Positions 244 to 28,044 of a stretch of DNA of 28,179 nucleotides are shown here, piece by piece. Under the pieces are notes generated by a model that saw nothing but the letters and a program-made list of their open reading frames with translations, had not been told where the DNA came from and ran no database searches. Within the stretch, counting starts at the first letter, position 1, and each line of letters begins with the position of its first letter. The translations under genes and the position numbers were made by a program. Source of the stretch: a virus; the IMG/VR virus record IMGVR_UViG_3300042567_001730, positions 1-28,179 of that record, one strand, 5' to 3'.

Positions 244-1770
244 TTATTTTGCCTGTATTTCTACGCCCGCTGGAACTGGCACTGCGCCAGGTGGTGGGCT
301 TGGCTTGCCTTCTTCAAACGCAATCTCAACGTCCACACCCTTGTTGTGATAAGGATACGGTTCATGTGTGGGTGCTCGATTCACAATACTTTCAAGCCCT
401 TGAGTTTTGACTATCCAGCCCTTGCTGGTATCCCATTCAGTGTCGTCTAATAGTGTTTTGGTCAAGGGTTGTGGTGTAGTCACTCGACCTGCTGCAGGCC
501 CGTTGAGATCAATACCACCTGCTTGTAGTGCTAATGCAGATCCTGCGCCCCAGGAGCCTGATGCACTGTTCAATGTCAATGTTCCGTCAGCTTTAACTCC
601 AATTGTAGATTTGCTGTACAAAGTAATATCTTCCTGTGCCTGCATGGCCAAAAACGTTCCTGACTCTATCTGCATGTCTTGTTTGCTTTTCATTTTTAGG
701 TAGCGGCCGGCAAACATGTTGATGTCTCGATCAGCATGCAAGTTTATATCACCTTTGGTACGTACATTCACTGAGTTTGTGGCATACACATCTACTGTGC
801 CTTCTACTCCAAATTCCAGCCAGGTTTGACCATTGGCATGAATAATGTAAAAAAAGTTTCCAGTATCGCTCATGGTAATTTGATGGCCAAGACTGGTTCT
901 CAAACGTAACATACCATTGTTTCCATCTAGATCGCCGTCGTCCATGACCAGACTGTGTCCACCTACCCGACCAATTACTCTCGCATCACTAGATTTGACT
1001 TCACCTGAATTGAGTTTGGCTCTGATGTCATTGGGTTTCATACCACCCTGATAAATGGCTGTGCCTGGTGTACTGATGCCAAATACTGCGCTGGGAGTTT
1101 CTCTCTGACTTGAACTTTGAATAGTACCTCGTTCTAGATCATTAATCAATCCTTGTTGCAACAAGGCCTGCGCGAGATATCCCTGCACAGGTTTGGTCTG
1201 ATCATAAAACCTTGGATCGTTAAAAACACCTTCGTTGTTTACATTTATTTCTGTGACTGGCAATCTGGCAGCATCGGCAAAATAAGTTTCTTGGTTTTGA
1301 TTCTGTATATCTGCTCGCGACACTGGTACTGAGCCAACAGCAGGTACCATGTGTCCCAGGCCTTGTTCTGGTATCACGCCAATGTAGAAGCCCTGACTAC
1401 GGTCACCATTGACAAATATACAAATTACTTTTACTCCCACGTCAGGAGGTGTGAACCACATGCCGTAACTGGTAGGATTGCCAGGATAAGCGCCAAGGCC
1501 TTCGGTGGCTCCTTGTGTTTGAGTCATTGGGGTATAGCCATAGAATGACGGCATGTAACTCACAGTGGTCCAGGTAGTTTCGTTGTCCATAGAACCAATG
1601 TCAGCTCCTGAACTAAACGCATCAATGTACACACGTAGGCGGCCCGACCGTGTGGGATCTACTGTACTCATGACCACTCCTGTGAATGGTCCAAATTCTG
1701 CGGGTACTCCTCCACGATCCAGTTTGTAATTACTAGGACGACCTCGACTGCGTTCTACGTTCTCTGCCAT
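244..1770 (-). CDS. gp5: gp5-like baseplate hub spike protein without lysozyme domain
   Basis: 508 aa. Forms the central membrane-piercing spike under the baseplate hub. Residues about 23-150 look like the gp5/VgrG OB-fold: FGPFTGVVMSTVDPTRSGRLRV at the start, then WFTPPDVGVKVICIF and GFYIGVIP. Residues about 260-440 give short alternating repeats (INLHADRDINMFAG, MQIESGTFLAMQAQEDITL) typical of the triple-stranded beta-helix of gp5 and VgrG spikes. T4 gp5 (575 aa, established) has a T4-lysozyme domain between these parts; here the intervening 110 or so residues are polar with no lysozyme-like motif that I can see. Start chosen because a strong AGGAGG lies about 7 bases upstream, inside the end of the preceding hub gene, 3 bp away. 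The C-terminus is Pro-rich. Assignment is confident as a spike; lack of enzyme activity is inferred. Confidence 0.85.
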   Translation of the reverse strand: MAENVERSRGRPSNYKLDRGGVPAEFGPFTGVVMSTVDPTRSGRLRVYIDAFSSGADIGSMDNETTWTTVSYMPSFYGYTPMTQTQGATEGLGAYPGNPTSYGMWFTPPDVGVKVICIFVNGDRSQGFYIGVIPEQGLGHMVPAVGSVPVSRADIQNQNQETYFADAARLPVTEINVNNEGVFNDPRFYDQTKPVQGYLAQALLQQGLINDLERGTIQSSSQRETPSAVFGISTPGTAIYQGGMKPNDIRAKLNSGEVKSSDARVIGRVGGHSLVMDDGDLDGNNGMLRLRTSLGHQITMSDTGNFFYIIHANGQTWLEFGVEGTVDVYATNSVNVRTKGDINLHADRDINMFAGRYLKMKSKQDMQIESGTFLAMQAQEDITLYSKSTIGVKADGTLTLNSASGSWGAGSALALQAGGIDLNGPAAGRVTTPQPLTKTLLDDTEWDTSKGWIVKTQGLESIVNRAPTHEPYPYHNKGVDVEIAFEEGKPSPPPGAVPVPAGVEIQAK

Positions 1771-14677: not shown

Positions 14678-15010
14678 TTAGAATTGATCTGGCCAATCTC
14701 GAAACAAGGCATGTTGTATATTGCCTGACACAAATTGATTGAAACTTTTGTGCTTGACTTCGAGTTCGCCTTCTAGTGGTGCTACTCGCTTGAATGCTGA
14801 ATCCATTTGACCCATGTCACGGAACTCCATGATGATCATCCATTCGGGCATGTCAGCTATGCTACGGAATCCCATCTTGCATCGGGTGATTCTATAACTC
14901 TCCATTTTGCCTTCTGAAATCAAATGATCAAAGAAACTTTTCATGCCGTTGACCCATTCAAGGTCTGTGATGTCGCCTTCTTTGTCTGCCCAAATTGTGT
15001 ATAAATCCAT
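14678..15010 (-). CDS. Conserved-looking small protein, possible dimeric alpha/beta-barrel fold
   Basis: 110 aa. Begins MDLYTIWADKEGDITDLEWV and continues with MESYRITRCKMGFRSIADM, PEWMIIMEFRDMGQMDSAF and FNQFVSGNIQHALFRDWPD. The pattern of strand, two helices and strand, with conserved Trp/Phe and a central Glu-Phe strand, resembles small dimeric alpha/beta-barrel (ferredoxin-like) proteins, but I do not recognise a named family with certainty. It is the last gene of the leftward gp26 operon, 3 bp after the GNAT-like gene. Function unknown. Confidence 0.75.
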   Translation of the reverse strand: MDLYTIWADKEGDITDLEWVNGMKSFFDHLISEGKMESYRITRCKMGFRSIADMPEWMIIMEFRDMGQMDSAFKRVAPLEGELEVKHKSFNQFVSGNIQHALFRDWPDQF

Positions 15011-16162: not shown

Positions 16163-17008
16163 TCAGGAGGCGGCCCCGAAAAAAGCGGCTTGATCCAAGG
16201 TAAGGGTTTGAGGCCACAAGTGGCCGCAATGCGAACAGGTCACGTTGATTGATTCAATTTCACTTTTTTGTCTTAGATCAATGATGTGATCTCGAATCTC
16301 TGTAAAAAATTTACGATCACAATTGACCAAAAACTCTTGAATAAATTCAGGCTCTGTTACCAAACTCTGCGGAGTACGAATACTGGCAATACTGTGCTTT
16401 AATGTTTCAATGGTAAGTGTAGTGATCTTTTGCAAGGTGGCATTGAGTTGTTCAATTTTTTGTTCATCAGTCAGTTGGTCAGACTGTTGTATCTGTTGTA
16501 TCATTCGCTGTTGATCGTACTGTTTGAGGTTGGTTTCATTTTGATGACGATACGCAATTGGTGTGAATGTGATTTCCAAGTCACCTTGTTTGATTGCTTT
16601 GCTGTAATCAGGACTTGATAGCCGGTCCAGTACACTTCTCAAATCCAAAACAAATTCGCTTTCAGTTTCGCATTTGGGACACTTGATGGTCATATCCATT
16701 TCATGACCGTAGCTGGCAATTCTAATGGCCACTAAAATTGCATTCAAATCAGTGCCTGGGGTATTCCAAGCATCACGTATGGTAGGAATGCAACTTTGAA
16801 TCACGTTTACCACAGCCTGGCCGTTGAACAGTGCATCAGGTGTGCGATATGTGATTTCGTCAATGGCAGTCATGGGATAAACTGGCAATTCTTTGTTTGC
16901 AGGCAGATCAAGCGCAGTTTGATCCCAGTATTGTCCCAATGACGGCAATCTGAGATAGATTGACGGTTGTCTAAAAAATTGTTTGAGCGGGTTCGTAGTT
17001 TGGGGCAT
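16163..17008 (-). CDS. gp26: gp26-like baseplate hub subunit (T4 baseplate protein family)
   Basis: 281 aa. The start LKQFFRQPSIYLRLPSLGQY, the MTAIDEITYRTPDALFNGQA block and two Cys pairs (C110-x-x-C113 in IKCPKCETES; C258-x-x-C261 in TCSHCGHLW) fit the T4 baseplate hub family (gp26). The Cys pairs look like zinc-binding ribbons. A Gln/Leu-rich helical segment (about 155-215) lies between them. It is the first gene of a leftward operon with the gp51-like gene. The promoter is shared divergently with the tape measure gene, and an AGGTGA precedes the ATG. T4 gp26 is 208 aa, so this is somewhat longer. Confidence 0.75.
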   Translation of the reverse strand: MPQTTNPLKQFFRQPSIYLRLPSLGQYWDQTALDLPANKELPVYPMTAIDEITYRTPDALFNGQAVVNVIQSCIPTIRDAWNTPGTDLNAILVAIRIASYGHEMDMTIKCPKCETESEFVLDLRSVLDRLSSPDYSKAIKQGDLEITFTPIAYRHQNETNLKQYDQQRMIQQIQQSDQLTDEQKIEQLNATLQKITTLTIETLKHSIASIRTPQSLVTEPEFIQEFLVNCDRKFFTEIRDHIIDLRQKSEIESINVTCSHCGHLWPQTLTLDQAAFFGAAS

Positions 17009-17047: not shown

Positions 17048-19891
17048 ATGACAGACGCAGAAAGAGCCGCAGCAGAACTAGCCGAAACGTTACGAAGAAT
17101 TAACGAAGAGCTGGCCGCAAATTCCAGAGTTTCCCAGGCAACTATGGACGCCCGCACGGATGCGGAAATGAAGGCCAAGTATGGTATACAAAACTTTACT
17201 GCTGGCACAGCCAAAGGCGCAGAAGCAATCACAGCACTGGCATCTGCCGGAATGTCTGCTGGAAAAGCCATGCTGGAAGGCAAAAAAGGTGCCGCTGCAT
17301 TTAATTCATCACTAGACGGATTAACCACAGCCGTAACAGCGGCAGGCGTTGCCCTGTCATTGATGGTACCAGTGATTGGTCCACTAGTTGCTGGCTTTGT
17401 TTTGGTAACCAAAGCTGTTGTTGACTATGCTAAATCTGCCAATGAAATGGCCGACAAGTTGTACAAAGGCTATGCAGGCCTGGCCGCAGTTGGTGCTGCC
17501 GCTGCTGATGGCATGACTGGAGTCAAAAACGGCGCACAAAAATTAGGCTTTAGTATGAATGAGCTGAGCGACTATGTTCAGCTGGTATCAGAAAACAGCA
17601 GAGAATTGGCTCAACTTGGTGGAACAGTAGCCGATGGTCGTCACGCACTGGAAAACATGGGCAAGGCCATGGAGCCTGCTCGCGAAGCCATGCTCAAGAT
17701 GGGACTCATGCCCAAAGAGTTGGCTGAAGGACAAGCTGCATATCTGAGAATGCAAACACGCATTGGCACAGCACAGGGAAAGACTGTGGATCAACTGGCT
17801 GAAGGTGCGCGAAAATATCTTGTTGAACAAGACGCACTGACCAAAATTACAGGTATCAGTAGAAAAGAAGCTGAAAAGCGTGAAGAGACAGCCAGAGGAG
17901 AAGAACAGTATGCTGGTATGCTCATGAAGTTGAGAGCCAAAGGTGATGAAGCTGAGATCAAACGTTTGACCAGCATGAGCCAGATGATGGGGGTGCTGGA
18001 TCAGGATGTTGCCAAAGCTGTGCGTTCGCTGATGACTGGATACATCACTCCTGAAGGTGAAAAGTTATTGATGAATGCGCCCAATGCACTCAAAGACATT
18101 CAAGCATTCAAAGACAAACAAATCACTCAGGAACAATTGGCTGACCGAGTGTTCAAAGGCATGGCAGACACAAGCGCACGAGTGTCAGCAGAATACGCCA
18201 CGATGGGTGCAGGTGCTGATACCTTTATGTCAGCTGCCACACAATTGAATGCAATGAACATTCAAGCTCAAGGCGTAGAAGCATCCTTAAAGAAAGCAAA
18301 AGAACAACAAGAAGCTCAAGGAGCCACTGGCAAAAAAGCCTCTGACCAACTGGTAGAAAATCAAGCCAAATTGATTGAAGCTGAACGTCTTGCCACAGTA
18401 GCCGTAGAAGATTTCATATCCAAAGGTATTGCACCAGCGCAGGAAGCAATGGAAATACTTGCTAAAAAAACTGAAGCTGGTGCCAAGGCACTGGATGAAC
18501 TGACACCGGGTGGTAGAAAGACAACCAAAGGAACTGTGGAAGATGTTGGCCAAGCTGGCGGAGCAATTGCTGGAGGCCTTGCTGGCGCCAAAGGAGGTGC
18601 CTTGATTGGATCATTGTTTGGCGGTGTTGGCGCAGTGCCTGGTGCTGTTATTGGTGGCTTGCTTGGATCCTTGGTAGGTGTATGGGGCGGCGGCACACTT
18701 GGCAAAGCAGGTGCAGGCATGGCCTATGATGCAGTTGCAGGGACAGGACAAGGTGGCCCACCAGTTGCCGGTGCTAGAGCCGCAGGTGGCCCAGTTGATG
18801 CTGGCAAGTTGTACAAAGTGGGCGAGCGTGGTGAAGAATACTTTAGACCCAATGTGGCAGGCGAAATTGTTCCAACCAATCAAATTTCTGGTATCACTGC
18901 TGCAGCCAACAACAGAATTGAAGTTATTGAACGAGCAGCCAAAGAGATTGCGGATGACACTGCTACCTTGGCCAAACTCACAGATGTAGACTTGAAAAAG
19001 ACACAGGATGCAAGTCGACTACAAGATCGTCTGCGCAAACTCAAAACTGAGTTGGCCATTGACGAAGTTGAATTACTCGAAGAACAAAAAGATCAACTGG
19101 AAAAAATGCTAGAGGCCATGGAAAAATCCATGGGCAAGGATGCCGCGACCAACATGCGTAGAAATGCTATAATGCAACGTGCCATGGGTGGTGGGTCAGG
19201 GTTACAAATGCCGTCAGCACCCGGCATGGGTGGTGGGTCAGGGTTACAAATGCCGTCAGCACCTAGCATGCCCAGCATGGGTGGTGGCCAAGGCTTGCAA
19301 ATTGCCAGTCAAGATGATCTAAAAAAACTTGGACTAAACATCAAAGCCGGCGATGTGCAAGCGGACAACGCTAAAATCAGTCCCAAACTGATAGAATTGG
19401 CCAAGGCTATTCAGGGAGGTGTTCCGGGCTTTGGTTATTTCAGTAGTTTTAATGACAAGTTTCACAACGAAAAAGCCCCTTCAAGCAAGCATACAGAAGG
19501 AATTGCATTAGATTTTACAGTGGCACAGCCTCCCAGTATCGACGATGGAAAAGCCATTACATCATGGCTCAAATCCATGGGTGCCAGCGTGGCCATTGAC
19601 GAATACAACAGCCCCACTGCCAAGTCAACTGGCGGTCACTTCCATGCTCAGTTGCCAACCTTTGCAGACGGTGGTACCCTGGGTGCTGGGCAATTGGGTA
19701 TTGCAGGCGAAGCAGGCAAACCAGAATTAATCACTGGTCCTGCTGAAATTACTCCTATTAATGAACTCATGAAAGCATTTGGCAGCCTGGCAGGTGTAAT
19801 GGCACAGTCGGTTGACAAATTGGACGAGCTAGTTCGAGCACAAAAAACCAACAACGATATCTCAAACAAGATCCTGCGTGTGCAACAGTAA
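17048..19891 (+). CDS. Tape measure protein with C-terminal M15-like peptidase domain
   Basis: 947 aa. Sets tail length and is carried inside the tube. Parts in order: helical N-terminus; hydrophobic segment about 96-128 (VALSLMVPVIGPLVAGFVLV); long Lys/Glu-rich helical region to about 490; Gly-zipper segment about 504-556 (GGAIAGGLAGAKGGALIGSL); the tail-protein block AAGGPVDAGKLYKVGERGEE; a coiled coil about 640-700; a Gly/Met/Pro linker with a 14-aa duplication; and a domain from about 775 with SSKHTEGIALDF (H815, D822) and GGHFHAQ (H864, H866), the zinc-ligand pattern of M15-type D-Ala/L-Ala peptidases. A final FADGGTLGAGQLGIAGEAG is typical of tape measure C-termini. I chose the ATG at 17048 because the late promoter lies just upstream and would fall inside a longer frame starting at 16967. 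Confidence 0.85.
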   Translation: MTDAERAAAELAETLRRINEELAANSRVSQATMDARTDAEMKAKYGIQNFTAGTAKGAEAITALASAGMSAGKAMLEGKKGAAAFNSSLDGLTTAVTAAGVALSLMVPVIGPLVAGFVLVTKAVVDYAKSANEMADKLYKGYAGLAAVGAAAADGMTGVKNGAQKLGFSMNELSDYVQLVSENSRELAQLGGTVADGRHALENMGKAMEPAREAMLKMGLMPKELAEGQAAYLRMQTRIGTAQGKTVDQLAEGARKYLVEQDALTKITGISRKEAEKREETARGEEQYAGMLMKLRAKGDEAEIKRLTSMSQMMGVLDQDVAKAVRSLMTGYITPEGEKLLMNAPNALKDIQAFKDKQITQEQLADRVFKGMADTSARVSAEYATMGAGADTFMSAATQLNAMNIQAQGVEASLKKAKEQQEAQGATGKKASDQLVENQAKLIEAERLATVAVEDFISKGIAPAQEAMEILAKKTEAGAKALDELTPGGRKTTKGTVEDVGQAGGAIAGGLAGAKGGALIGSLFGGVGAVPGAVIGGLLGSLVGVWGGGTLGKAGAGMAYDAVAGTGQGGPPVAGARAAGGPVDAGKLYKVGERGEEYFRPNVAGEIVPTNQISGITAAANNRIEVIERAAKEIADDTATLAKLTDVDLKKTQDASRLQDRLRKLKTELAIDEVELLEEQKDQLEKMLEAMEKSMGKDAATNMRRNAIMQRAMGGGSGLQMPSAPGMGGGSGLQMPSAPSMPSMGGGQGLQIASQDDLKKLGLNIKAGDVQADNAKISPKLIELAKAIQGGVPGFGYFSSFNDKFHNEKAPSSKHTEGIALDFTVAQPPSIDDGKAITSWLKSMGASVAIDEYNSPTAKSTGGHFHAQLPTFADGGTLGAGQLGIAGEAGKPELITGPAEITPINELMKAFGSLAGVMAQSVDKLDELVRAQKTNNDISNKILRVQQ
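19184..19267 (+). repeat. 42-bp tandem duplication in tape measure gene
   Basis: Two near-identical 42-bp units (starts at 19184 and 19226), each coding MGGGSGLQMPSAP; a third partial, diverged unit follows (MGGGQGLQ). It lies in the flexible linker before the peptidase-like domain. The units are identical over most of their length, which suggests recent slippage. Confidence 0.9.
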
Positions 19892-19896
19892 TCACG

Positions 19897-19904
19897 GTAA
19901 ATAA
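19897..19904 (+). promoter_or_regulatory. Late-type box directly before the portal gene
   Basis: GTAAATAA, with its TAAATA core ending 7 bases before the gp20 ATG at 19911. No Shine-Dalgarno sequence is visible in the 19-base gap after the tape measure stop. If it works as a promoter, the transcript would start at or within a base or two of the ATG. Confidence 0.4.
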
Positions 19905-19910
19905 ACAACT

Positions 19911-21695
19911 ATGGCAGATAAACAACAAGGTTCGTGGCGCAAGTACTTTAAAGTCGCAGACAATTCAGGTGTGATGAGTCCAATCTCGGGCAAGAATCAA
20001 TTTGGCTTGCCAAATTATCCTCGCAACGACGGCAGCAATGCTTCGGCACAAGCAGACTTTGTGTTTCGCAACTATGCCAGCAGACTGCCAGAAGTTTACT
20101 CAGGTCACCCTAATCGTGTGGAACGTTACAATCAGTATGAGAACATGGACATGGACTCGGAAGTCAATGCCTGTTTGGACATCATTGCTGAGTTTTCTAC
20201 ACAGATGTCAGAAACCAATGGTACGCCTTTTGAAACCACTTATCATGACAAACCAACTGATCACGAGATTGGCATCATCAAGAAACAACTGCAACAGTGG
20301 GTCAAACTAAACAAACTGGACCAGCGCATATTCAAACTGTTCCGCAACACCATCAAGTACGGTGATCAGATTTTTGTTCGTGATCCTGAAAACTTTGAAA
20401 TGATGTGGGTGGACATGAGCAAGGTCATGCGTGTGATTGTGAACGAATCAGAAGGCAAACGTCCTGAGCAGTATGTGATTCGTGACATCAACCCCAACTT
20501 TCAGAACATGACTGTGGCAGCCAAGACCACCACAGACTACATGACAAACCCTGTGACAGGTACCATATCGGGCAGTTCAAACTACACCATGCCCAACGGC
20601 GGCGCAGGTGGCGGTGTAGGCAACAGCCGATTCATGCATGCCATGAACGAAGCCACTCTGGATGCCAAGCACGTGGTACATTGCAGCCTGAACGAAGGCC
20701 TGGATGTGTTTTGGCCGTTTGGACGCAGTATCCTAGAACAGATCTACAAGGTGTACAAACAGAAAGAATTGTTGGAAGACGCTATTCTTATCTATCGTGT
20801 GAGTCGTGCTCCAGAGCGCAGAATTTTCAAAATTGACGTGGGCAACATGCCCTCACACCTGGCCATGCAGTTTGTGGAACGTGTGAAGAATGAAATGCAT
20901 CAGCGCAGAATCCCTACCATAACAGGTGGCGGACAAAACATGATGGATTCAAGTTACAATCCACTTAGTATCAACGAAGACTACTTCTTCCCCCAGGGTG
21001 CTGACGGTCGTGGCTCCAGTGTTGACACACTACAAGGTGGTTCAAATCTGGGTGAAATTGACGACTTAAAATACTTTAACAACAAAATGGCCCGTGGTTT
21101 GCGTGTGCCTAGCAGTTACTTGCCCACTGGTCCTGACGACTCAGACCGTGCAATGAGCGACGGAAAAGTAGGAACAGCACTCATACAAGAGTACAGATTC
21201 AACCAGTATTGTGAACGTTTACAGGCGTTAATTGCTCAGAAATTAGACGACGAATTCAAGATGTTTTTGAAGTGGCGTGGGTTTAACATTGACTCCAGTT
21301 TGTTTTCAATTGGATTTAATCCACCTCAAAACTTTGCCAGTTATCGTCAAAGTGAACTGGATAACACACGTATTCAAGCATTCATGCAGATGGAGCCGTT
21401 GCCTTACATGTCAAAACGTTTTTTGCTTGAACGTTTCTTGGGCTTGACTGAAGAAGAAATTAAAGAAAATGAAACTATGTGGCGTGAAGAAAGAGACACG
21501 CCTAATATAGAAGCGTCAGGCAGTGACCTACGATCAGTGGGAATCAGTCCTGGCGCTATGGAAACTGACATTGCCACTGGGGAAGAAATTGGTCAAATGG
21601 AACCGGCAGCTCCGGGAACACCAGAAGTAGGATCAGCACCTGCAGGCCCTGTAGTACCTGGAGGCGTGGGTGGCGCAGGCGCCCCGGCTGCATAA
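19911..21695 (+). CDS. gp20: gp20 portal vertex protein
   Basis: 594 aa (T4 gp20 is 524). Forms the dodecameric portal at one prohead vertex, where packaging and tail attachment occur. Recognisable blocks: QADFVFRNYASRLPEVYSGH near the start, YENMDMDSEVNACLDIIAEF, FRNTIKYGDQIFVRDPENF, DVFWPFGRSILEQIYKVYKQ, LEDAILIYRVSRAPERRIF, KYFNNKMARGLRVPSSYLPT and FNQYCERLQALIAQKLDDEF. The C-terminal 40 or so residues are a Gly/Pro/Ala-rich tail. It follows the tape measure gene by 19 bases and leads the head operon. The gp20-67-21-22-23 order matches T4. Confidence 0.95.
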   Translation: MADKQQGSWRKYFKVADNSGVMSPISGKNQFGLPNYPRNDGSNASAQADFVFRNYASRLPEVYSGHPNRVERYNQYENMDMDSEVNACLDIIAEFSTQMSETNGTPFETTYHDKPTDHEIGIIKKQLQQWVKLNKLDQRIFKLFRNTIKYGDQIFVRDPENFEMMWVDMSKVMRVIVNESEGKRPEQYVIRDINPNFQNMTVAAKTTTDYMTNPVTGTISGSSNYTMPNGGAGGGVGNSRFMHAMNEATLDAKHVVHCSLNEGLDVFWPFGRSILEQIYKVYKQKELLEDAILIYRVSRAPERRIFKIDVGNMPSHLAMQFVERVKNEMHQRRIPTITGGGQNMMDSSYNPLSINEDYFFPQGADGRGSSVDTLQGGSNLGEIDDLKYFNNKMARGLRVPSSYLPTGPDDSDRAMSDGKVGTALIQEYRFNQYCERLQALIAQKLDDEFKMFLKWRGFNIDSSLFSIGFNPPQNFASYRQSELDNTRIQAFMQMEPLPYMSKRFLLERFLGLTEEEIKENETMWREERDTPNIEASGSDLRSVGISPGAMETDIATGEEIGQMEPAAPGTPEVGSAPAGPVVPGGVGGAGAPAA

Positions 21696-25881: not shown

Positions 25882-26865
25882 ATGATACACAACCTTGATT
25901 CAACCTGTTATTACTCAAATCGTAACTATCTTACTCAATGGTTCTACGATGATGTTATGGTAATTGTAGACACTGAAACTTTGCCTTTGCGCAACGAGCT
26001 GTATCGCGAGAGCAATGCACATTTTGAAAATCAACGTCTGCAACAGCTGATTAATCAGCATCCAGTTAAACAGCATGTGATTGATGTGACTCATAATGTG
26101 TTGCCTGTACATACTTTAGAAAAAAATCTAGCTAGGCCAATACTGACCAACGATTGTGAATACTACTATCAGCCACAACCAGGCGTGATATTTTTTCCTG
26201 TATTTCTTTGGGGATTTAGTTTGCGAAATCGTCTGTGGCAGGACAATGCATTTAGTTTTGATGCTGGATCCAACAAAGTTCAAGAAATAATGTGCCTCAA
26301 CAATCGTCCACGTTGGCACCGAACTTGGCTATGGGCAGAATTCAATCGCCTTAACACAATCTCTAAGATGACTTACAGTTTTGCTGCTTTGGAGCCTGAC
26401 AGCATTCCTTATACCTATCCTTGTCCACTATTGTTGCCAGGCGAAGAGCCCAATAACACTCGCAATGATGTTGGTGTGGATTTAAAAATCTATCATGACA
26501 CCGCAGTAAACTTAGTGACTGAAACCAGTGTAGATGATATCTTCTTGACTGAAAAAACTTGTAAGCCATTTATGGCTAGACAAATACCTATCATAGCATG
26601 TGCTGCTGGAACAAACAAGTTTCTGTCAGATGTTGGTCTAGACATGTTTGAAGACATTGTGCCTTGGCAAAGCTGGGATAGCAATACAAACAATCAATCA
26701 AGACTAGAAAGCATTGCTAACTTTGTTGACTGGTGGGTGTGCAGTGGCACAATCATGCGCACTTACCAGGACTTGCTGCCCAGGATTGAACGTAACAAAC
26801 AATACTTCCATAGTGAAACTTTTAGACAACGCATCATGACTCAGATGGATCAATTTAAATTTTGA
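25882..26865 (+). CDS. Glycosyltransferase-like protein (fucosyltransferase GT10-like C-terminus)
   Basis: 327 aa. The best recognised part is VDDIFLTEKTCKPFMARQIP (E224, K225) followed by IIACAAGTNKFLSDVGLDMF and EDIVPWQSWD, which matches the nucleotide-sugar binding end of alpha-1,3-fucosyltransferase-like (GT10-type) enzymes: FxTEKxxxP, then G-x-x-x-L-x-x-x-G-hydrophobic. The N-terminal half has hydrophobic strands (VMVIVDTETLPLR, GVIFFPVFLWGFSL) but no motif I can name. Acceptor unknown: virion protein, phage DNA or host surface sugar. It stands between the gp23 terminator and a convergent second transferase, with the two 3' ends overlapping by 11 bases. Confidence 0.6.
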   Translation: MIHNLDSTCYYSNRNYLTQWFYDDVMVIVDTETLPLRNELYRESNAHFENQRLQQLINQHPVKQHVIDVTHNVLPVHTLEKNLARPILTNDCEYYYQPQPGVIFFPVFLWGFSLRNRLWQDNAFSFDAGSNKVQEIMCLNNRPRWHRTWLWAEFNRLNTISKMTYSFAALEPDSIPYTYPCPLLLPGEEPNNTRNDVGVDLKIYHDTAVNLVTETSVDDIFLTEKTCKPFMARQIPIIACAAGTNKFLSDVGLDMFEDIVPWQSWDSNTNNQSRLESIANFVDWWVCSGTIMRTYQDLLPRIERNKQYFHSETFRQRIMTQMDQFKF

Positions 26866-28003
26866 ACCACGAGAGATATTGAGCAATCTTCTTGGTAACA
26901 CTTTCCCAATCACCCATTTTGGGTTGTCTGAACAGTCTGGCACTGGAATACCAAGGACTAGAATCTCTGTCCAACAGCCAACGCCAGTCTGTGGCAAAAG
27001 CATTGAGCATGACCCAGGCTGGTCGTCCCAAGGCACCTGCCAGGTGAGTGATAGCAGTGTCCACACTGATTACAACATCCAAGTGCATCATCAATGCAGC
27101 AGTGTCTGCAAAACTGGCAATTGATCCTGGCCAAAGTTTAAGCCCGGCGTCGGCTAGAGCCTGTTCTTCATTGGACGTGGAGTCTACTTGTAGACTGATC
27201 CACTCATATTCAGGGTGACTCTGGATCATGGACAACACCTGATCAAAAGGTACACTTTTGTGTTGATTGAGCCAGGAGTCTCTACGACCACTCCAAGAGA
27301 TTCCCACACGCATTTTATATTTAGGTCCTAGGCGATCCTGCCACTGTTTCATTAACTCAGGATTAGCGTTCATGTAACTTTGGATTTTGGGCAAGTTATC
27401 CAGCGTGACACCAAGTATGCCTGGAATACTCATGATAGGAACCCAGTAATCAAAGTCTCCCATGTCATCGCCGTAGCCGGCAACCTGCTGTATTATGTCA
27501 CTGGTGTTTAACAAAGGAATTAATCCATCTGTGACCTGCAGTTTGACCCGGGCACCCATCAAGTGTAGATTGTAAACAAATCTCACAAACTGAATACAAT
27601 CACCGTGACCTTGCTCACCCACCACAAGAATAGTCTTGTCTTTGAGATCTTCTCCACGCCAGCGTGGTTGACTTAACTTGGGTTCTGTCCCTACTAAATG
27701 TTCGTAGTTCCAGCGTGACTCATAGGCAGGCCAACCACGCTGATAGTCGCCACTCAACAAATAGCTCACGGCCAAATTAAAATGTGCTGTTACATTGTTT
27801 GGTTCCAACAGTGCAGCATGTTGAAGAAACGGTATGGCACGTTTTGGATGCCCGCATTCACGCATGACATTGCCGTAGTTGTTGAATGCTGCGGCTGAAT
27901 CAGGGTCTTGTACAAAAGCCATGGCATAACATTGCAGTGCCTGTTCAGGACGTCCTTCGGCTCTGTGCTGGTTACCAGCATCAATTAACTCAGTAGTGTT
28001 CAT
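26855..28003 (-). CDS. TPR-containing glycosyltransferase-like protein
   Basis: 382 aa. Residues 1 to about 95 form two to three tetratricopeptide repeats (NQHRAEGRPEQALQCYAMAF, NYGNVMRECGHPKRAIPFLQ, HFNLAVSYLLSGDYQRGWPA). The rest matches the transferase-like domain often joined to TPRs in bacteria: QPRWRGEDL, VVGEQGHGDCIQFVRF (about 126-141), VGISWSGRRDSW and DVVISVDTAITHLAGALGRP (about 311-330), then DWRWLLDRDSSPWY. GT9/GT41-like use of a nucleotide sugar is the likely activity. The bacterial-style architecture suggests acquisition from a host. Start chosen at the ATG at 28003; an in-frame GTG at 28030 would add nine residues. A TAAATA box ends 5 bases before the ATG. Confidence 0.7.
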   Translation of the reverse strand: MNTTELIDAGNQHRAEGRPEQALQCYAMAFVQDPDSAAAFNNYGNVMRECGHPKRAIPFLQHAALLEPNNVTAHFNLAVSYLLSGDYQRGWPAYESRWNYEHLVGTEPKLSQPRWRGEDLKDKTILVVGEQGHGDCIQFVRFVYNLHLMGARVKLQVTDGLIPLLNTSDIIQQVAGYGDDMGDFDYWVPIMSIPGILGVTLDNLPKIQSYMNANPELMKQWQDRLGPKYKMRVGISWSGRRDSWLNQHKSVPFDQVLSMIQSHPEYEWISLQVDSTSNEEQALADAGLKLWPGSIASFADTAALMMHLDVVISVDTAITHLAGALGRPAWVMLNAFATDWRWLLDRDSSPWYSSARLFRQPKMGDWESVTKKIAQYLSWFKI

Positions 28004-28008
28004 AAGGG

Positions 28009-28014
28009 TATTTA
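28009..28014 (-). promoter_or_regulatory. Late-type box directly before the TPR transferase
   Basis: Minus-strand GCGTAAATACCC, with TAAATA ending 5 bases before the ATG at 28003. It shows the same close spacing as the boxes before gp20, the 73-aa gene and the other transferase. Confidence 0.35.
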
Positions 28015-28044
28015 CGCTCCTGGCAAACACTATTTTACATTTTC

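Follow-up and report, generated by a model that had tools for sequence, protein, structure and literature searches.

A predicted LAS-type peptidase in the tape measure protein of an uncultured T4-like giant phage occupies an exchange site for wall-hydrolase cassettes

The tape measure protein (TMP) encoded by the viral DNA analyzed here (an entire 28,179-base IMG/VR record, itself a fragment of a virus genome and hereafter called the window) very probably carries an exchangeable wall-hydrolase cassette, here a LAS zinc metallopeptidase, that would be released at entry to cut the peptides of peptidoglycan. Tape-measure-borne hydrolases are already known from phage TM4, and the broader result is that members of this clade exchange wall hydrolases at the C-terminus of the TMP. 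Below, we describe the gene and its peptidase domain, the bare central spike that accompanies it, and the replacement of the cassette among relatives, and then weigh what the domain might do instead.

The window resembles the jumbo phages PA5oct, Phosso, and Vibrio phage 2.275.O, with major head proteins ~65% identical and the same gene order, i.e., baseplate wedge and spike genes, late sigma factor, gp47/gp46-like genes, gp26-like hub, TMP, portal, protease, and head protein (coordinates of the features discussed are collected in Table 1). Scanned at full length, the TMP matched the tape measure family phrog_1538, which covers the open reading frame, and no peptidase family. Its location is that of PA5oct gp335, a structural protein detected by MS, and its N-terminal profile aligned to PA5oct gp335 and to the RaK2 TMP with hhalign probabilities of 89% and 91%, respectively; family similarity, a place beside tail and portal genes, and the MS-detected counterpart together identify it as a TMP. 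Elsewhere in the window, a TPR-repeat protein that also matches glycosyltransferase family 9 (26855-28030, minus strand) adjoins the head genes, and a DUF6614 protein (14678-15010, minus strand; E 1.5e-21) lies between recombination and tail genes.

Table 1. Positions in the window of the tape measure gene, its parts, its neighbors, and the central spike
Feature	Position	Strand	Basis
TMP gene, 947 aa, ATG start	17048..19891	+	flanked by the gp26-like hub and portal genes; phrog_1538 match E 1.4e-8
TMP ruler region, conserved, residues 1-475	17048..18472	+	alignment A3, 31 sequences
Linker rich in Gly/Ser/Met/Pro, residues ~713-752, upstream edge of cassette	19184..19303	+	sequence
LAS-type zinc peptidase domain (predicted), residues ~753-872	19304..19663	+	60-sequence alignment A2; AF2 model; Foldseek
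H806 codon, invariant; proposed Shh H135 counterpart, from residue order	19463..19465	+	alignment
H815 codon, proposed zinc ligand 1	19490..19492	+	sequence and alignment
D822 codon, proposed zinc ligand 2	19511..19513	+	sequence and alignment
E852 codon, invariant; proposed catalytic base and putative Shh E177 counterpart	19601..19603	+	alignment
Codons of H864-x-H866 (proposed catalytic/positioning His, H864; proposed zinc ligand 3, H866)	19637..19645	+	alignment; VldE H373-x-H375 (PMC11667670)
C-terminal TMP tail, motif GG..GE.G.PE, residues 873-947	19664..19891	+	equivalent tail retained across cassette exchange (L278 vs L089 alignment)
gp26-like baseplate hub gene, divergent neighbor	16163..17008	-	phrog_150 E 2e-18
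Portal protein gene, downstream neighbor	19911..21695	+	phrog_213 E 8e-108
gp5-like central spike, 508 aa, without enzyme	244..1770	-	phrog_13211 E 2e-37; only Phage_base_V and DUF2345 in Pfam, both below curated cut-off
Spike OB-fold part, residues ~28-135	1366..1689	-	Phage_base_V match 101-132; start set by comparison
Spike beta-helix part, residues ~290-427	490..903	-	DUF2345 match 325-427

An earlier note on this DNA had read a zinc-ligand pattern in the TMP C-terminus, and H815, D822, H864, and H866 indeed stand at precisely the positions it gave, forming an H815-x6-D822 pair followed by H864-x-H866. The motif H..[GA].[AG].D...H.H appeared in 0 of 20,000 shuffles of the TMP and a looser form in 1 of 20,000. 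Across 60 homologues, N802, D803, H806, H815, G818, A820, D822, F823, G845, E852, Y853, H864, and H866 are invariant, the site residues being kept over the full 32-100% range of identity, and, judged from the alignment, this set is the pattern expected of a metal site plus its second shell. Structure prediction, which the note had proposed as a check, was run on the domain with the 60-sequence alignment and gave an AlphaFold model (pLDDT 90.0, pTM 0.85) in which strands 68-73 and 113-116 coincide with the ligand motifs. The best solved Foldseek matches were Hedgehog N-domains (E 5e-3, probability 1.00), then LdcB, VldE, the RB49 L-Ala-D-Glu endolysin, and the DD-peptidase 1lbu, which all belong to the LAS group, at individually modest E-values (best PDB values 5e-3 to 0.1). 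An AlphaFold run on the single sequence (pLDDT 49.6) was discarded; a PDB sequence search with that sequence gave no match, and a search with the domain profile gave weak matches only, including VldE at E 0.21.

The H815-x6-D822 pair, the C-terminal H866, and the fold (from Foldseek on the predicted model, with modest E-values) place the domain among the LAS metallopeptidases (clan MD). The M15 label that the earlier note had attached to the zinc-ligand pattern finds no support, since Pfam M15 scores are sub-threshold and the canonical D/E-x-x-H is absent. The isolated domain reached 13.7 bits with M15_4 and 13.2 bits with M15_3 (cut-offs 25 and 23.2; E ~0.1), and Pfam VanY did not match. The catalytic D/E that M15 peptidases have three positions ahead of their final zinc His (in EndoT5, catalytic D130 and zinc H133; PMC10487532) is absent, as G863 stands there and there is no conserved acidic residue. 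The site reads H-x6-D plus H-x-H, in the LAS style of Hedgehog and VldE, rather than the M15 H-x6-D plus D/E-x-x-H. H806, H815, D822, E852, H864, and H866 follow the same order as the Hedgehog site (E127-H135-H141-D148-E177-H181-H183; PMC4102407), while spacings differ (E852 to H864 is longer than the Hedgehog equivalent), such that a residue-by-residue correspondence, drawn from order, is tentative. The VanY-type, M15_4-type, and TM4 mt3 cassettes were considered as near relatives and rejected (profile comparison probability 1-3%), and we treat them as separate cassettes.

The central spike is bare, as the earlier note had stated: family scans return OB-fold and beta-helix signals only, and a T4-lysozyme-like E-x8-D-x5-T stretch is absent between the two. 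Among 87 complete homologous spikes in IMG/VR, 85 are 499-518 aa long and the other two have short tails with no enzyme motif. T4 gp5 likewise joins an OB fold to a beta-helix in a spike with a wall-opening role at entry, but its lysozyme sits between the two, whereas the window phage pairs a bare spike with a predicted enzyme on its TMP. The spikes of T4-like cyanophages are also said to be without lysozyme. A distant relative's spike (L306:431-3955) has a ~650-aa Ala/Ser-rich extension. Where the TMP bears a T4-lysozyme-type cassette (L225), the spike of the same genome is bare and 82% identical to that of the window.

Cousins place their enzymes differently. The RaK2-like and CBB phages share the T4 superfamily and gene order with the window (the head protein of an Erwinia member is ~62% identical), but show the reverse arrangement, with a spike whose C-terminus holds M23-like and GH24 domains (for CBB, PMC5259590) and a TMP without hydrolase. 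Spikes of RaK2, Vibrio 2.275.O, and SNUABM_47 end in this pair, and that of XaC1 is similar by eye; in the RaK2-like spikes L034:6476-9136, L033:15364-18015, and L037:17938-20619, the pair follows the beta-helix, unlike in T4. In the Atu_ph07 and Phosso spikes, a region that looks muramidase-like by eye precedes a trypsin-like domain (the latter with a Pfam match in Atu_ph07 only). In Atu_ph07 (L035:29705-32302), this is Trypsin_2 at E 6e-17 after the C-terminal muramidase-like region, while the Phosso protease (L032:4588-7722) looks inactive because its His and Ser motifs are altered (NAQV and GMAGGP in place of NAHV and GMSGGP). TMPs at the homologous place in the cousins with enzyme-bearing spikes showed no hydrolase (the full-length Atu_ph07 TMP was not located).

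In PA5oct, a wall hydrolase is recognizable in neither the spike (L031:6290-7723) nor the TMP (18781-21177), so a virion hydrolase may be dispensable or located elsewhere. Enzyme locations on spike and TMP hence tend toward mutual exclusion, though not strictly, and the rule that a bare spike means a TMP enzyme was rejected on PA5oct. For the survey of spike and TMP enzymes that the earlier note had suggested, the picture is one of bare spikes and TMP cassettes in the clade, enzyme-bearing spikes and enzyme-free TMPs in the cousins, and neither enzyme in PA5oct. The same phage has a 193-aa M23-like ORF at record position ~280 kb.

A second virion lysozyme elsewhere in the genome would have spoken against a wall-cutting TMP. 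As the window is a 28-kb fragment, two near-full-length relatives (G023 and G025; 320 kb and 332 kb) were searched for GH24, Phage_lysozyme2, SLT, M23, and M15_4, and none was found. Their sole GH19 match, a weak one, is a 205-aa protein beside Rz/Rz1-like genes and probably the endolysin; the window-type domain occurs once per genome, within the TMP.

To survey the C-terminus without bias, a scan was made with the TMP N-terminal profile (residues 1-475, also the basis of the tree below), which is blind to the cassette, and the closest 80 of 304 relatives were kept, including 53 non-redundant TMPs with a complete C-terminus. All 53 carry a recognizable wall-hydrolase cassette near the C-terminus. 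It is window-type in 24, and the rest are VanY-type, another M15 type, M15_4-type, T4-lysozyme-type, lambda-muramidase-like, or RTNNPGN-type. An initial regex classification had left nine of the 53 without a cassette, and inspection placed six of these in a further M15 type and recognized in the other three a variant of the window domain (L259), a muramidase-like domain of lambda type (L270), and an R-T-N-N-P-G-N domain (L275). The L270 and L275 assignments were made by reading, with no Pfam match. Pfam on cassette representatives gave M15_4 at 1e-12, VanY at 4e-7 and 5e-6 (another at 1e-4, below cut-off), and Phage_lysozyme at 1e-14.

On an N-terminal tree of 75 TMPs (a quick tree with some long branches), the cassette classes require at least 23 changes; the window class changes at least 13 times on well-supported branches, and the T4-lysozyme type arose twice. 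The exchange is visible between L278 (VanY type) and L089 (window type), which are 88% identical over 480 N-terminal residues, ~25% across the cassette, and >90% in the C-terminal tail and which, on this sequence comparison, represent a recent cassette swap with near-identical flanks. Similarly, L244 and L246 share 94% identity across their first 480 residues and remain highly similar up to ~residue 680, after which identity falls to ~25%. A survey of phage protein mosaicism found that TMPs often appear mosaic but confirmed no genuine recent case (PMC10684548); cases of this kind are provided here by L278/L089 and by the 23-change tree.

Some lineages have two adjacent TMP genes. In L026-L028 and L025, the first bears the window-type peptidase and the second GH19 (1e-9) or Phage_lysozyme2 (1e-25); the order runs the other way in L107/L109/L111 and L121, whose first TMP has a region that looks SLT-like by eye but has no Pfam match. 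Three tandem lineages combine the window-type peptidase with a glycosidase-like domain on the other TMP. Ruler lengths are similar within the pairs L026:5830-10403, L025:5824-10103, L107:2341-6582, and L121:2135-6585. Both proteins possibly enter the same tail, and these complementary enzymes raise the question of whether two kinds of TMP fit into a single tail tube.

Beyond this clade, tblastn against cultured phages found the domain in EL gp183 (43%) and RisingSun (36%), with weaker matches in Psychrobacter phage D'Alembert and Vibrio phage VH-8. EL gp183 and RisingSun gp228 are its nearest cultured sequence relatives (36-43% identity over ~110 aa, all site residues kept), but the protein that carries the domain there is of the ~2500-aa EL type, not this TMP. 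In RisingSun too, the domain lies near the C-terminus. EL gp183, which we take to be the counterpart of phiKZ gp181, joins a GH19 domain to this peptidase near the C-terminus of one chain, whereas the window TMP has the peptidase only; in the literature searched, we found no report of its activity. Because the domain is paired with a glycosidase in several arrangements (tandem TMPs, EL gp183), peptidoglycan is indicated as its substrate. In D'Alembert and VH-8, the related domain lies in baseplate hub-like proteins beside the spike gene (L050:3855-5579 and L051:3858-5591). A profile scan of IMG/VR for the domain gave 238 relatives, and nearly all of the 80 kept sit in TMP homologues. A search of GTDB genomes found it at only five loci, with the Bosea and Acinetobacter copies in phage-type long tail proteins. 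In Parachitinimonas and Bosea (L125:4750-6537 and L126:4225-6546), the domain follows an SLT-like or RNNNPGN-type muramidase-like region in a single chain.

By analogy with TM4 and VldE, the cassette most likely cuts stem peptides once the TMP leaves the tube. TM4 mt3 and VldE have the LAS zinc fold predicted for the window domain and share its H-x6-D plus H-x-H, and mt3 likewise forms part of a TMP. Peptidoglycan is hydrolysed by mt3, which helps DNA injection into stationary cells (PMC1796659), and VldE, its cellular LAS relative in S. pneumoniae, cleaves L-Ala-D-Glu (PMC11667670). However, TM4 is a siphophage of a mycobacterium, unlike the window phage, and mt3 and VldE have an additional H-x-D ahead of H-x-H (TM4 H-M-D-H-V-H), whereas the window reads T-G-G-H-F-H, so that their subfamily mark H-x-D-H-x-H is absent from it; hhalign of the window domain against mt3 gave 2% probability, with no convincing sequence homology past the first motif. 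The Anabaena myophage A-1(L) pairs a glycosidase with a peptidase on the tail-tip baseplate hub (PMC10966104), a place unlike the TMP used here.

During entry, sheath contraction would drive the bare spike through the outer membrane, where it would leave the tube. Ejection of the TMP is established for tailed phages, and in this phage the protein would be expelled ahead of the DNA, freeing its C-terminal domain in the periplasm. There, the metal would be held by H815, D822, and H866 and water activated by E852 and H864, and the domain could cleave peptidoglycan peptide bonds and thereby let the tube or the DNA pass.

Could the peptidase merely be an accessory, aiding against thick or cross-linked walls while the wall of growing cells is breached by another, unrecognized protein of the virion? 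We think this unlikely, though it deserves serious consideration: the TM4 mt3 deletion is viable at a ~50% plating cost on stationary cells (PMC1796659), some relatives carry the extra glycosidase-like domain on a second TMP, and PA5oct has neither enzyme. Against it, the cassette is kept in 53 of 53 TMPs, such that its loss seems selected against in the clade, and two near-full-length relatives have no other enzyme of the searched families. A non-catalytic domain that binds peptidoglycan or serves a structural role, like Hedgehog with a retained zinc site, would fit the best fold matches (Hedgehog N-domains, whose own peptidase activity is unproven; PMC4102407) and the long E852-H864 spacing; it is improbable given that ligands and candidate catalytic residues alike are invariant over 32-100% identity and that the domain repeatedly co-occurs with or replaces hydrolases.

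That same replacement makes a protease of tail assembly or maturation, processing the TMP or baseplate proteins, highly improbable, as the lysozyme, GH19, and VanY domains exchanged for it act on peptidoglycan and could not share protein processing, even though it sits in a structural protein and metallopeptidase folds are able to cut proteins. Least probable of all is lysis from within rather than entry, suggested by a weak PHROG endolysin match (E 0.014) and by the label "endolysin" in some EL-like records, since the domain belongs to a 947-aa tail protein and relatives have a separate GH19 endolysin beside Rz/Rz1-like genes. Entry by a TMP-borne hydrolase, the reading we prefer, retains the core of the earlier note's idea that the wall-cutting job may have moved from the spike to the TMP: a role on the TMP agrees with the conserved domain, the clade-wide bare spikes, and the two near-full-length relatives with no other virion enzyme of the searched families. 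The direction of movement does not follow, as PA5oct has neither enzyme and the RaK2-like spike enzymes are C-terminal rather than between OB fold and helix. Likewise, a peptidase-like domain is present here, but its replacing a glycosidase is too simple, as the two kinds alternate in the TMP and, in some relatives, a second TMP brings in a glycosidase-like domain as well.

The means by which T4-like phages lacking a spike lysozyme get through the wall are usually not specified, and here a specific candidate enzyme can be named for a large uncultured clade. The cassettes are small, modular lysins that can be studied one by one. We lean toward the view that this clade of uncultured T4-like giant phages uses the TMP C-terminus as a plug-in socket. 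Unrelated peptidases and glycosidases would frequently replace one another there, probably in keeping with the host wall, much as receptor-binding tips are changed to suit the host surface. Some lineages have two side-by-side tape measures, a peptidase on one and a glycosidase on the other, and their tail may deliver both.
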